Shown piece after piece: positions 13,630 through 23,607 of a stretch of 64,000 bases of DNA. Positions within the stretch are counted from its first letter, which is position 1. Each line of letters starts with the position of its first letter. The stretch is from positions 1 through 64,000 of the forward strand of contig SEEL01000018.1 of the NCBI GenBank assembly GCA_004144345.1. The letters run 5' to 3'. This DNA is from Hyphomicrobiales bacterium (lineage in GTDB: Bacteria; Pseudomonadota; Alphaproteobacteria; Rhizobiales; Devosiaceae). A program made the position numbers and the translations under genes. Below the pieces are notes generated by a model. It was given only the letters and a program-made list of their open reading frames with translations. It was not told the DNA's origin and did no database searches.

Positions 13630-14496
13630 TCAGCGCTGCAGTTTCTCAATCACCAGGTCGAGCTGTTCTAGCGAACGGTAGCGAATCTCGACTTTGCCGC
13701 CCTTTTCCTTGTGGTCGATGGCGACGCTCATGCCCAGTACATCGGACAGGCGCTTCTCGAGCGCCAGCGTATCGGCATCGCGGGGCTCTTCCGACTTGGG
13801 CTCGCGCTTCGGCACACTGCCGCGCTGGCTGAGCACTTCGGCTTCGCGGACGGAGAGGCCATCTTCGATGATCTGCTTGGCGAGCGCCATCGGGTCGTCG
13901 ACGGTGATCAGCGTGCGCGCATGACCCGCCGTCAGCTGGCCATTGGAGACCATATCGCGCACATTCTGCGGCAGCTTGAGCAGCCGCATGGTGTTGGCGA
14001 CGTGCGAGCGAGATTTTCCGATAACCTGCGCAAGGTCTTGTTGCGTATATGAAAACTGCTCAATAAGCTGTTCATAACCCTGTGCTTCTTCCAGTGGATT
14101 AAGGTCCACTCGCTGCACGTTCTCAATGATCGCCAGCTCGAGCGATTCCTTGTCATCGACCTCGCGGATGATGACCGGCACGTCATGGAGGCCAGCGCGC
14201 TGGGCGGCGCGCCAACGGCGCTCGCCGGCGATGATCTCGAAAATGTTCGGATCTTCGCTCGGACGGACGAGCAGGGGCTGCATCACGCCCTTCTCGCGAA
14301 TCGAATTGGTCAGCTCTTCGAGCTGTTCCGGCGCAAATTCGCGGCGCGGATTGGCACGGTTGGCGATGATGAAGTCGAGCGGCAGGCGCTTCTGGTTGCC
14401 ATTGCTGGCCTCAGCGACGCGCGGCGCCTCGATCGGGGCCATATCGCCGATAAGAGCCGCGAGGCCGCGCCCGAGTCTGTTGGGTTTTTCTACCAT
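13630..14496 (-). CDS. parB: Chromosome-partitioning protein ParB
   Basis: RLGRGLAALIGD; IIAGERRWRAAQRAGL; HTH IGKSRSHVANTMRLLKLP. Confidence 0.98.
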   Translation of the reverse strand: MVEKPNRLGRGLAALIGDMAPIEAPRVAEASNGNQKRLPLDFIIANRANPRREFAPEQLEELTNSIREKGVMQPLLVRPSEDPNIFEIIAGERRWRAAQRAGLHDVPVIIREVDDKESLELAIIENVQRVDLNPLEEAQGYEQLIEQFSYTQQDLAQVIGKSRSHVANTMRLLKLPQNVRDMVSNGQLTAGHARTLITVDDPMALAKQIIEDGLSVREAEVLSQRGSVPKREPKSEEPRDADTLALEKRLSDVLGMSVAIDHKEKGGKVEIRYRSLEQLDLVIEKLQR

Positions 14497-15319: not shown

Positions 15320-15907
15320 CTAAGCGCTTGATTTGTCGCGTAAATTGCTGATCTCGAGAACGACGCCCTCGGGATCGGACTCGCTATTGTGAACTACCAC
15401 ATCGAAGTGGAAATGGGCAGTCGCCGCGTCAAGTTCTTGACGATAATTGCGTCCCTTTGGCAGCAAGCAGCGGGTGCTTTGGCTCGCGAAAGTCGCGCAA
15501 TAACGCAGCAGCACGGGCAGGGCGGCGAGCGCCCGCGACGTAATGACGTCGTAAGTTTCACGTGAATCAATGTCCTCGGCGCGCAGCGCGAGGACGGTGA
15601 TTGGCAGGCTCAGGTCGCGCGCTACGGTGCGAAGGAAAGACGCCTTCTTGGCAATCGGCTCTACCAGCGTGAAGCGCCGCTGTGTTTCACGTGAAGCAAT
15701 CGCCATCGGGATAGCCGGGAAGCCGCCGCCGGAGCCAATGTCGAGCAGGTTGAGATCGTCGTCGCGCAGGAACTTCACCAGCTGCAGGCTGTCGGCGATG
15801 TGGCGGGGCCACAGCTCGCCGATTGTTTCACGTGAAACGAGATTCTGAACCGCGTTCCACTTGATCAACAGCTTTGCATAGGCTTCGAGGTCGGATTGCT
15901 GGCTCAT
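15320..15907 (-). CDS. rsmG: 16S rRNA (guanine(527)-N7)-methyltransferase RsmG
   Basis: [18 protein letters not shown]; order parAB-rsmG-mnmG. Confidence 0.96.
15555..15568 (+). promoter_or_regulatory. parS site, variant GTTTCACGTGAATC (inside rsmG)
   Basis: TTCACGTGAA core; overlaps GAATC (GANTC). Confidence 0.85.
15683..15698. promoter_or_regulatory. parS site TGTTTCACGTGAAGCA (inside rsmG)
   Basis: TTCACGTGAA core with near-consensus arms. Confidence 0.88.
15824..15839. promoter_or_regulatory. parS site TGTTTCACGTGAAACG (inside rsmG), perfect GTTTCACGTGAAAC core
   Basis: Perfect 14-bp palindrome. Confidence 0.93.
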
Positions 15908-20783: not shown

Positions 20784-21215
20784 TCAGAACGGCCGGACGA
20801 TCACCATCACGACGATGATAATGGCGAGCACGAAGGGCAGCTCGTTGATCATCCGAAAGAAGGTATGGGGCCGGGTATTCCCGTCGGCCGCGAAATCCTT
20901 GAGCAGCCGGCCGAAGAAACCGTGGACCCCCGACAGCGCCAGCACCGATCCGACCTTGATCCACGACCAGGCCATGCTCCAGTCGAAGGCGCCCTGCCAC
21001 AGCATGATGAGGCCGAAGAGCCACGTGGCGATCATCGCCGGCGTGGTGATGCCGCGGTACAGCCGGCGTTCCATCACCTTGAACGTTTCGGATTTCTCCG
21101 AACCGACCGGGGCCTCGGCGTGATAAACGAACAGCCGCGGCAGGTACATCATGCCCGACATCCAGGCGAGCACGCTGATCACATGCAGCGCCTTGACCCA
21201 GCTGTACCAATCCAT
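20784..21215 (-). CDS. hemJ: Protoporphyrinogen oxidase HemJ (CopD-like membrane protein)
   Basis: WVKALHVISVLAWMSGMMYLPRLFVYH; adjacent to hemE. Confidence 0.93.
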   Translation of the reverse strand: MDWYSWVKALHVISVLAWMSGMMYLPRLFVYHAEAPVGSEKSETFKVMERRLYRGITTPAMIATWLFGLIMLWQGAFDWSMAWSWIKVGSVLALSGVHGFFGRLLKDFAADGNTRPHTFFRMINELPFVLAIIIVVMVIVRPF

Positions 21216-22249
21216 CAGCGACCCCTTTTGACGATTTCGACCAGCCGCTCGACATGGGCGATCGGCGTCTGCGGCACGATGCCGTGGCCCAGATTGAAGA
21301 TATGCGGCCGGCCCGCAAAGCCGGCAATGATGGCTTCCACCCGCGCTTCCATCTGCTCGCCGCCGGCAATGAGCCGCAGCGGATCGAGATTGCCCTGGAC
21401 GGGGAGGGCGGCCGGCAGCGCCTTGTCGATGGCGGCGACCGGGGTCATGTAGTCGAGGCCGAGCGCATTGACGCCGGTCTTTTCCGCATAAACCGGCAGC
21501 ATCGCCGCCGCGCCGCGCGGAAAGCCGATGATCGGGGCGCCGGGGATTTCGCGCCGCACCGCCTCGACGATCCGCCGGTTCGGCTCGATCACATAGGCGG
21601 CAAACTGCTCCTCATCGAGATTGAGCGCCCAGCTCTCGAACAGCTGCACCACATCGGCGCCGGCCCGGAACTGCGCCACGAGATAAGCAGTCGACGCCTC
21701 GACCAGCATGTCGATCAGCCGGGCAAAGGCCTCCGGCTGGGTCAGGGCGAAAACCCGCGCCACCGCCTGGTCGGGCGAGCCGCTGCCATTGATCATGTAG
21801 GTCGCGACCGTCCAGGGCGACCCGCAAAAGCCGATCATCGTCTTGTCGGGGGCGAGCTCCGCCGTTACCCGGCGCAGCGTTTCGAGGACCGGGGCGAGAT
21901 GGTCGAGCACGGCATCCGGCTTCAACTTCCCCAGCCCTTCCGGCGTGATCGGCTCGAGCAGGGGACCTTCCCCCACCTCGAAGCGAACCTTCTGGCCGAG
22001 CGCATCGGGGATCACGAGAATGTCCGAGAACAGGATCGCGGCATCGAGATCGAACCGGCGCAGCGGCTGCAGCGTTACTTCCGCAGCATATTCGGGCGTG
22101 TAGCAGAGCTCGAGGAAGCCGCCGACCTTTTCGCGCACGGCGCGATATTCGGGCAGATAGCGGCCGGCCTGCCGCATGATCCAGAGCGGTGGCCGTTCCT
22201 GGCGTTCACCCATTACGGTCTTCAGCAGTGGTTTGCTCACCGGGCTCAC
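21215..22249 (-). CDS. hemE: Uroporphyrinogen decarboxylase
   Basis: RPPLWIMRQAGRYLPEYR; GFCGSPWTVATYMINGSGS. Confidence 0.98.
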   Translation of the reverse strand: MSPVSKPLLKTVMGERQERPPLWIMRQAGRYLPEYRAVREKVGGFLELCYTPEYAAEVTLQPLRRFDLDAAILFSDILVIPDALGQKVRFEVGEGPLLEPITPEGLGKLKPDAVLDHLAPVLETLRRVTAELAPDKTMIGFCGSPWTVATYMINGSGSPDQAVARVFALTQPEAFARLIDMLVEASTAYLVAQFRAGADVVQLFESWALNLDEEQFAAYVIEPNRRIVEAVRREIPGAPIIGFPRGAAAMLPVYAEKTGVNALGLDYMTPVAAIDKALPAALPVQGNLDPLRLIAGGEQMEARVEAIIAGFAGRPHIFNLGHGIVPQTPIAHVERLVEIVKRGR

Positions 22250-22427
22250 AGTCGCGCCTCTAAGAAAGAGATAGATTCTTTTATCATCAGTATCATAGCG
22301 GTGTTTTGCAGGAATTCATGGCGGCGACCAGCCGGAACGCATCCTGCGGGCCCGCGCGAAGAGTCGCATCCGCAAGCTGGGGACGGGCTTCTGTGAATCC
22401 GGGAGAAGAGGCCGGGACTCGCCTGCG

Positions 22428-22442
22428 TTAACGGGTCGTTAA
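22428..22442. promoter_or_regulatory. CtrA box TTAA-N7-TTAA in putative oriC
   Basis: ttaacgggtcgttaa. Confidence 0.75.
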
Positions 22443-22477
22443 CCATTTCAGCCCGGCCGCTGCCCTTGGGGACAAGA

Positions 22478-22486
22478 TGTGGACAT
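22478..22486 (-). promoter_or_regulatory. DnaA-like box (ATGTCCACA on the minus strand)
   Basis: tgtggacat. Confidence 0.4.
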
Positions 22487-22507
22487 CCGGCCACCGCTGG
22501 AATCACG

Positions 22508-22516
22508 TTATCCCCG
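22508..22516 (+). promoter_or_regulatory. DnaA-like box TTATCCCCG
   Basis: Two mismatches to TTATCCACA. Confidence 0.35.
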
Positions 22517-22525
22517 TTCCGGGTC

Positions 22526-22540
22526 TTAACCTTTCATTAA
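22526..22540. promoter_or_regulatory. CtrA box TTAA-N7-TTAA in putative oriC
   Basis: ttaacctttcattaa. Confidence 0.75.
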
Positions 22541-22582
22541 CCGCTCGGCTGAACGGAGTGGGGACGCCTGGACGGGCCAGCG

Positions 22583-22597
22583 TTAGCAACTCGTTAA
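22583..22597. promoter_or_regulatory. CtrA-like box TTAG-N7-TTAA in putative oriC
   Basis: ttagcaactcgttaa. Confidence 0.6.
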
Positions 22598-22652
22598 CCC
22601 TGCGGTCGGCGGCCGGATACCCACAGCCCGAACCGCGGGTCTGGGATGACTC

Positions 22653-22661
22653 TGTGGATTG
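22653..22661 (-). promoter_or_regulatory. DnaA-like box (CAATCCACA on the minus strand)
   Basis: tgtggattg; intact ATCCACA core. Confidence 0.55.
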
Positions 22662-22736
22662 GCGTCGGCGACCGGCGGCCTCGACAGAATCGCCGCCCCG
22701 GCAAAGTGAGGGATTGCAGGCCGGACTCGAAACTGC

Positions 22737-22751
22737 GAGTCGAGTCGAGTC
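22737..22751. repeat. Tandem (GAGTC)3, three consecutive GANTC sites
   Basis: gagtcgagtcgagtc just upstream of aroE. Confidence 0.9.
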
Positions 22752-22777
22752 CAATCAAGGGAAGCGGCCGCGGCCGT

Positions 22778-22793
22778 GGATTCACGTGAAACG
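22778..22793 (-). promoter_or_regulatory. parS site GGATTCACGTGAAACG overlapping the aroE start
   Basis: TTCACGTGAA core; overlaps GATTC. Confidence 0.9.
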
Positions 22794-23607
22794 CGCTTTC
22801 GTCATCGGCCATCCGATCAACCATTCCCGCTCGCCGCTGATCCACGGCCATTGGCTCAAGAGTCACCGTATCGACGGCTCCTATGAAGCGATCGATGTGG
22901 CGCCCGCCGACCTGCCGGATTTCTTCGAGCGGGTGCGGTCGGGCGAGTTCGCCGGCGGCAATGTCACCATCCCGCACAAGGAAGCCGTGTTCGCCCTGGC
23001 CGATGAGCGCGACCCGCTGGCCGAAACGATCGGCGCCGCCAATACGCTGGTGCACCGGCCGGACGGGGTGTTTGCCTTCAACACCGACTATCTCGGCTTC
23101 CTCGGCAATCTCGACCAGAATGTCCCGGGGTGGGACAAGGGTGTTAACGAAGTGGTGGTGCTGGGGGCAGGGGGATCGGCCCGCGCCATCCTCGTGGCGC
23201 TCAAATCGCGCGCCATCCCGACCATCCATCTTCTCAATCGCACGCTTCAGAATGCCGAGGATCTGGCCATCGATATTGGTGGGCCGATCCGGGCAGGGGG
23301 GCTGGGCGATTTCGCCAGCGTCGCGCCCGGCGCCGGGCTGGTGGTCAATTGCTCGTCGGTCGGCATGCATGGCAGCCGCTTCGACAGCGTCGATCTGAAC
23401 CTCCTGCCGAAATCGGCCGTCGTCACCGACATTGTCTATGTGCCGCTCGAAACCCCGCTCCTCGCCGATGCCCGCGCCGCCGGCCTGCGCACCGTCGATG
23501 GCCTCGGCATGCTGCTGCATCAGGCGGTGCCCGGTTTCGAGGCCTGGTTCGGCGTCCGGCCGGAGGTGACGCCGGAACTGCGCCGTCTCGTGGAAGCGAC
23601 ACTCTGA
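22786..23607 (+). CDS. aroE: Shikimate dehydrogenase
   Basis: FVIGHPINHSRSPLIHGHWL; GNVTIPHKEAVF; GAANTLV; GTG start inferred. Confidence 0.93.
   Translation: MKRAFVIGHPINHSRSPLIHGHWLKSHRIDGSYEAIDVAPADLPDFFERVRSGEFAGGNVTIPHKEAVFALADERDPLAETIGAANTLVHRPDGVFAFNTDYLGFLGNLDQNVPGWDKGVNEVVVLGAGGSARAILVALKSRAIPTIHLLNRTLQNAEDLAIDIGGPIRAGGLGDFASVAPGAGLVVNCSSVGMHGSRFDSVDLNLLPKSAVVTDIVYVPLETPLLADARAAGLRTVDGLGMLLHQAVPGFEAWFGVRPEVTPELRRLVEATL

Follow-up and report, generated by a model that had tools for sequence, protein, structure and literature searches.

What is a crowd of GANTC sites doing between hemE and aroE, in DNA where this word is otherwise scarce? The window, that is the whole stretch of 64,000 nucleotides analysed here, is placed by HemE comparison in or near the genus Devosia, to which its four closest named relatives belong (HemE identity 70-73%; six loci from named GTDB genomes). 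Its genes follow one another in the order parB-parA-rsmG-mnmG-mnmE-rho-hemJ-like ORF-hemE-[gap]-aroE-coaE-dnaQ, the names other than hemE, aroE and parB having been assigned by reading the open reading frames. The succession par-rsmG-mnmG-mnmE-rho-hemE is the classic origin neighbourhood of alphaproteobacteria, and the gap occupies in it the hemE-adjacent position that characterizes a Cori-type origin. Synteny, parS sites and motif content together make it very probable that the gap between hemE and aroE is oriC. GC skew is weak, both in the window and in the complete genome of a congener (G014), and rightward of hemE its sign is locally wrong. Across 16 species the origin is best conserved in TTTATCATCAGTATCATAGCGGTGTTTTGCAGGAATTC (22280-22317), a comparatively AT-rich block that could be the hemE promoter or an unwinding element.

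The preliminary description of this DNA had counted twelve GANTC sites in about 510 bp, three of them back to back, and all are there, starting at 22274, 22361, 22395, 22416, 22500, 22648, 22687, 22724, 22737, 22742, 22747 and 22779, with the contiguous three forming (GAGTC)3; a thirteenth, at 22860, lies within aroE. Its expectation of one site per about 300 bp turned out to be too generous, as the window holds one per about 550 bp, 116 in total against 313 +/- 17 in dinucleotide shuffles. Given this scarcity of GANTC, the cluster stands out even more than had been thought: from the observed background one would expect 0.84 sites in 510 bp (Poisson p ~ 1e-10), and when the region was shuffled 5000 times no shuffle reached twelve (mean 2.7), which rules out chance or base composition as its cause. 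No similar enrichment is seen for the 15 remaining palindromes of NNxNN type. A scan of 1.64 of the 4.1 Mb of the genome (about 40%), with coding and intergenic DNA separated by a simple codon-usage gene finder, gave 22.4 sites/kb in the gap against 1.36/kb overall, some 16-fold more. The gap is the only intergenic region of at least 300 bp in the scanned part to exceed 15 GANTC/kb, and the next best 510-bp cluster holds 8 sites, so that no comparable cluster, which the preliminary description would have taken as evidence against its reading, was found at a non-origin locus within this fraction. That second densest window belongs to a 912-bp, apparently intergenic stretch (L087, 11444-12355).

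CcrM and GcrA, the writer and a candidate reader of such sites, are both encoded in the genome. The preliminary description had made its reading hang on the presence of CcrM and had proposed a search for a SeqA-like or GcrA-like binder. CcrM is a full-length orthologue of 376 aa, with an N6_N4_Mtase domain and a C-terminal RAMA domain, and its identity amounts to 88-91% in near relatives and 78-84% in the rest of the genus. Against the NCBIfam equivalog NF050803, a model whose name points to Caulobacter, it scores 632.7 bits, below the cut-off of 830, with positions 2-349 of 350 aligned. GcrA (190 aa) is recognized by the Pfam GcrA family with 173.9 bits; against NCBIfam NF050816 it scores 145.5 bits, below the 280-bit cut-off.

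As the preliminary description had proposed, relatives were compared, and the cluster recurs beside hemE. Measured against flanking DNA, GANTC is enriched over the 600 bp upstream of hemE 7.1-fold in Devosiaceae (n=36 origins), 4.8-fold in other Hyphomicrobiales (n=20) and 4.2-fold in other CcrM-bearing alphaproteobacteria (n=36); for seven control palindromes composed of the same letters the ratio is mostly close to 1. The value falls to 0.83-fold in 11 alphaproteobacteria without a full CcrM match. This contrast is confounded with phylogeny; most of the 11 are small genomes rich in AT, and in them hemE may fail to mark oriC. One GC-rich exception (L125) has 5 sites, and reduced genomes that do carry CcrM (L132-L136) likewise have few. 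Within the genus, GANTC words are better conserved than the other words of the origin, both over 15 species (p 3e-4) and over three close ones (p 2e-5), values that are nominal because the species are related.

The sites are set among other elements of a Caulobacter type (Table 1). Perfect CtrA boxes number only 8 in 1.58 Mb elsewhere in the genome, 0.003 being expected per 540 bp; the two found here, 98 bp apart (22428-22540), are retained across much of the genus. The origin holds six DnaA-like sites, each with 2 mismatches and none perfect. Several GANTC sites adjoin such boxes, but a rule that places GANTC beside DnaA-like boxes found no support (25 of 124 lie no more than 8 bp away, where shifted positions lead one to expect 19.7; p 0.12). 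An inverted repeat at 22724-22741 was dismissed as a cruciform or hairpin, the DNA fold being not significant (z = -1.4).

Table 1. Features of the putative origin and its surroundings; positions are those of the window.
Feature	Position	Strand	Remark
parB	13630..14496	-	
Three parS sites in rsmG	15554..15839 (15554, 15683, 15824)		best matches of the genome
hemE (uroporphyrinogen decarboxylase)	21215..22249	-	divergent left neighbour of the gap; TIGR01464 above cut-off
Putative oriC, hemE-aroE intergenic gap	22250..22785		536 bp; all 12 GANTC inside; from synteny
GANTC	22274..22278		near hemE 5' end; belongs to 24/31 pair in relatives
GANTC	22361..22365		kept in 3/3 close maf-less relatives
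GANTC	22416..22420		adjoins CtrA box 1; retained in 80% of 15 species
CtrA box TTAACGGGTCGTTAA	22428..22442		perfect TTAA-N7-TTAA
DnaA-like ATGTCCACA	22478..22486	-	2 mismatches
GANTC	22500..22504		3 bp from DnaA-like TTATCCCCG; retained in close relatives
DnaA-like TTATCCCCG	22508..22516	+	2 mismatches
CtrA box TTAACCTTTCATTAA	22526..22540		perfect TTAA-N7-TTAA
CtrA-like TTAGCAACTCGTTAA	22583..22597		1 mismatch
GACTC	22648..22652		abuts DnaA-like box (TGTGGATTG)
DnaA-like CAATCCACA	22653..22661	-	2 mismatches
Inverted repeat GACTCG-N6-CGAGTC	22724..22741		kept in four maf-less species, loop variable
Candidate relic of maf codons 19-25	22733..22753	+	in-frame L R V E S S P; intact relatives L R F E S S P
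YGAKTCG match CGAGTCG	22736..22742	+	GcrA extended motif
(GAGTC)3 tandem	22737..22751		unique in genome
YGAKTCG match CGAGTCG	22741..22747	+	overlaps the first
parS-like GGATTCACGTGAAACG, degenerate	22778..22793	+	right end of gap; includes last GANTC (22779)
aroE (shikimate dehydrogenase)	22786..23607	+	GTG start within parS-like site

The tandem at the right edge deserves separate consideration. Its sequence, GAGTCGAGTCGAGTC, occurs a single time in the 4.1-Mb genome, and it carries the word YGAKTCG, known as the extended GcrA motif in Caulobacter (Haakonsen 2015, as reported in PMC7987155). All 16 origins examined in the genus have one or two matches to this word, at the tandem spot only and nowhere else in the origin, the word being fitted by 310 of the 2116 GANTC of the sampled genome. 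To all appearance the tandem is a GcrA-type element in what was the 5' end of maf, not a generic pad. GcrA is a cofactor of sigma-70. A consensus scan of 22200-22900, the GcrA-type element included, found no sigma-70-like promoter, so that binding without transcription, or a promoter invisible to such a scan, must be considered; a terminator was also looked for at the tandem, and none was found.

The history of maf is what makes this spot informative. Thirteen congeners have maf after the origin, and the tandem spot corresponds there to maf codons 20-25, which read GATTC-N5-GAGTC and encode L-R-F-x-x-S-P, spelled CGA TTC ... AGT CCA. The codons chosen are rare ones, yet almost without variation: Arg20 is CGA or AGA in 13 of the 13 maf-bearing congeners (codons that account for 17% of Arg in these genes), Ser24 has AGT in 11/11 (usage 14%) and Pro25 has CCA in 13/13 (usage 25%). 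When the 126 conserved degenerate columns are ranked by how well the codon is kept, Ser24 comes first, Pro25 third and Arg20 joint seventh, and the remaining top-ranked columns also fall mostly in codons 1-40, including the CTG-GGG of codons 38-39, which resembles origin words of the CTGTGGA type. GANTC itself reaches 16/kb in codons 1-40 against 2.2 in the rest of the gene (1.4 against 0.9 in sister genera). This synonymous constraint is located within codons 1-40, and oriC function therefore appears to extend some 120 bp into the maf coding sequence. Codon by codon, synonymous constraint is seen over L007-L030 at maf codons 1, 10, 20, 24, 25, 38 and 39.

The origin-linked maf is absent from the window and from L005, L006 and L009, where the sequence has drifted and the GANTC sites remain. 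Over three close species, 72% of the GANTC words of this former maf zone are kept, against 12% of other words (p 3e-6). The only Maf-family gene of the genome lies away from oriC (G000:C124:3278-3841, L095), so the origin-linked copy was lost or moved. As the maf-bearing L007 pairs with the maf-less L009 in a HemE tree (95/89), maf may have been lost on two separate occasions, which a single-gene tree cannot prove.

How should we understand such a setup? That the GANTC sites have been kept by selection seems to us very probable on comparative grounds. That they form, in the chromosomal origin, a CcrM site set whose hemimethylation is read by GcrA, and which marks the origin, is on balance probable. 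In this process CcrM would fully methylate the twelve sites late in the cell cycle, and firing of the origin would make them hemimethylated before all other loci, and for the longest time. GcrA, a cell-cycle regulator sensing GANTC, would then read hemimethylation at (GAGTC)3 (22736-22752), at the right edge of oriC, a step that we put forward tentatively. Hemimethylation would probably also tune the binding of proteins beside the CtrA and DnaA-like boxes. The origin would thereby be marked as just replicated, and this may affect initiation, or transcription at the origin.

Other accounts have to be weighed against this one. The preliminary description had likened the tandem to a methylation-sensing landing pad, and the corresponding process would be a sequestration of the SeqA kind, in which a protein with a preference for hemimethylated GANTC covers the origin once it has fired and keeps DnaA blocked until CcrM has restored full methylation. 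In its density the cluster resembles, in kind, the GATC of E. coli oriC, and this, together with the sites that abut DnaA-like and CtrA boxes, is what one would expect of it. We know of no protein that sequesters hemimethylated GANTC, and no sign of one came up in the analysis, which did not cover SeqA itself; SeqA is known to us only from gammaproteobacteria. Older models required a fully methylated Cori (PMC2217572), and work cited in PMC3973325 has the chromosome number of Caulobacter rise when CcrM is over-expressed. Data from both model species nevertheless oppose the analogy: initiation control is normal in Caulobacter without CcrM (PMC3973325), and the DnaA-dependent ori1 of Agrobacterium is essentially unaffected by CcrM depletion or over-expression, while ori2 responds to CcrM through the repABC promoters and GcrA (PMC11514494). 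Sequestration is in consequence quite unlikely, and a role in initiation may be absent altogether. Less improbable, if still unlikely, is a role in transcription, the sites belonging to GcrA/CcrM-dependent promoters for hemE, for maf or aroE, or for an origin non-coding RNA similar to CcnA of Caulobacter. GcrA works via promoter GANTC sites (PMC3667746, PMC7987155), the GcrA-type motif stands some 35-50 bp before aroE, a pair of GANTC directly precedes hemE, and a non-coding RNA is made from the Caulobacter origin (PMC8959179). Yet the motif falls within codons 20-25 of maf in the 13 congeners, past the start of that gene, the consensus scan returned no sigma-70-like promoter, and twelve sites far exceed what any promoter region of the sampled genome holds.

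Accounts that dispense with function fare worse. The tandem, taken alone, could be an accidental and functionless remnant of maf codons (R-V-E-S-S), and the reading frame that survives in it does resemble the intact Maf protein. Around it, however, the former maf sequence is scrambled among maf-less species while the GANTC sites are retained, where maf is intact, codon choice is constrained at precisely the bases in question, and the HemE tree permits two losses of maf with the site retained each time, all of which makes such an accident improbable. Neutral accumulation, with GANTC counter-selected in coding DNA and merely tolerated in a long intergenic region, is the least likely account. Intergenic GANTC is indeed generally commoner in alphaproteobacteria (PMC3973325), and in the 1.64 Mb scanned it amounts to 3.04/kb against 1.13/kb in coding DNA. 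This bias is real but too small to be the whole cause: oriC exceeds the intergenic mean 7-fold and shuffles of itself 4.4-fold, the sites are conserved in register, and those within the maf coding sequence are conserved via rare codons. We consider this last account very improbable.

The word extends beyond the gap, into the segregation sites. The genome's best three matches to parS are found 7-8 kb from the gap, and the degenerate site GGATTCACGTGAAACG is conserved at the aroE start in relatives. A parS-like form with an embedded GANTC, GATTCACGTGAA, is present in the window at 15554, 17811, 20732 and 22778, and nowhere else in the genome. Over 16 Devosiaceae genomes (relatives L004-L031 and L096-L100), 90 of the 118 TTCACGTGAA sites show GATTCACGTGAA on one arm, where chance would give 2/16 (nominal p 1e-56). 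All 87 GANTC-type parS sites on hemE contigs lie within 100 kb of hemE (median 6.8 kb), and a genome from elsewhere in the Hyphomicrobiales usually has 0-3 of these, with 7 as the maximum. The GATTC arm is turned toward oriC in 35/39 cases in the genus and in 34/48 in other genera, a polarity that could be due to gene strand or codon use. It is conceivable, although we think it rather unlikely, that the whole Devosiaceae origin domain is written in the CcrM code, with a GANTC array, a GcrA-type element and the asymmetric parS GATTCACGTGAA. If true, methylation would report replication of the origin both to the initiation and to the segregation machinery, a role of CcrM of which our literature search found no description.

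The meaning of CcrM methylation at alphaproteobacterial origins has been in question ever since GANTC sites were noted in the origin of Caulobacter, where the knockout phenotype argued against it. The answer obtained here is an evolutionary one and hangs on no single model organism: enrichment of the sites extends over the orders that carry CcrM, rare codons preserve them within maf, and they are retained after maf disappears. This persistence points to a role for methylation of the origin as such in these bacteria. That GANTC sites occur in the origin of Caulobacter and in those of repABC type was already known, as were the genome-wide depletion of GANTC and its intergenic excess in alphaproteobacteria (PMC3973325). 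Our search of openly accessible papers brought up no mention of a class-wide enrichment linked to CcrM, of constrained maf codons, of sites that outlast maf, or of the parS variant.

Among known systems, E. coli oriC with its GATC sites, Dam and SeqA is alike in having dense sites for an orphan adenine methylase in the origin; enzyme and motif differ, and loss of CcrM leaves initiation control undisturbed in Caulobacter. The repABC origins (Agrobacterium ori2, pTi, pAMI4) share an excess of CcrM sites, which is thought to couple replication with the cell cycle (PMC11514494, PMC6090056, PMC9040568), whereas the Devosia-type origin is of the chromosomal DnaA type, without repABC. With the epigenetic promoter module of GcrA and CcrM it has in common a GANTC of the YGAKTCG type and the presence of both proteins, but its site stands in an origin, within a coding start in relatives, and no promoter was detected there. 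In Brucella, also a member of the Hyphomicrobiales, CtrA was reported not to bind the origin (PMC2877005); the present genus, in contrast, has a Caulobacter-like origin that is putatively under CtrA control. A further parallel is Cori of Caulobacter crescentus, linked to hemE, with CtrA boxes of the form TTAA-N7-TTAA, DnaA-like boxes and several GANTC sites (PMC3973325, citing Shaheen 2009), from which the Devosia-type origin is set apart by its twelve sites, by (GAGTC)3, and by a conserved YGAKTCG at the maf/aroE edge.
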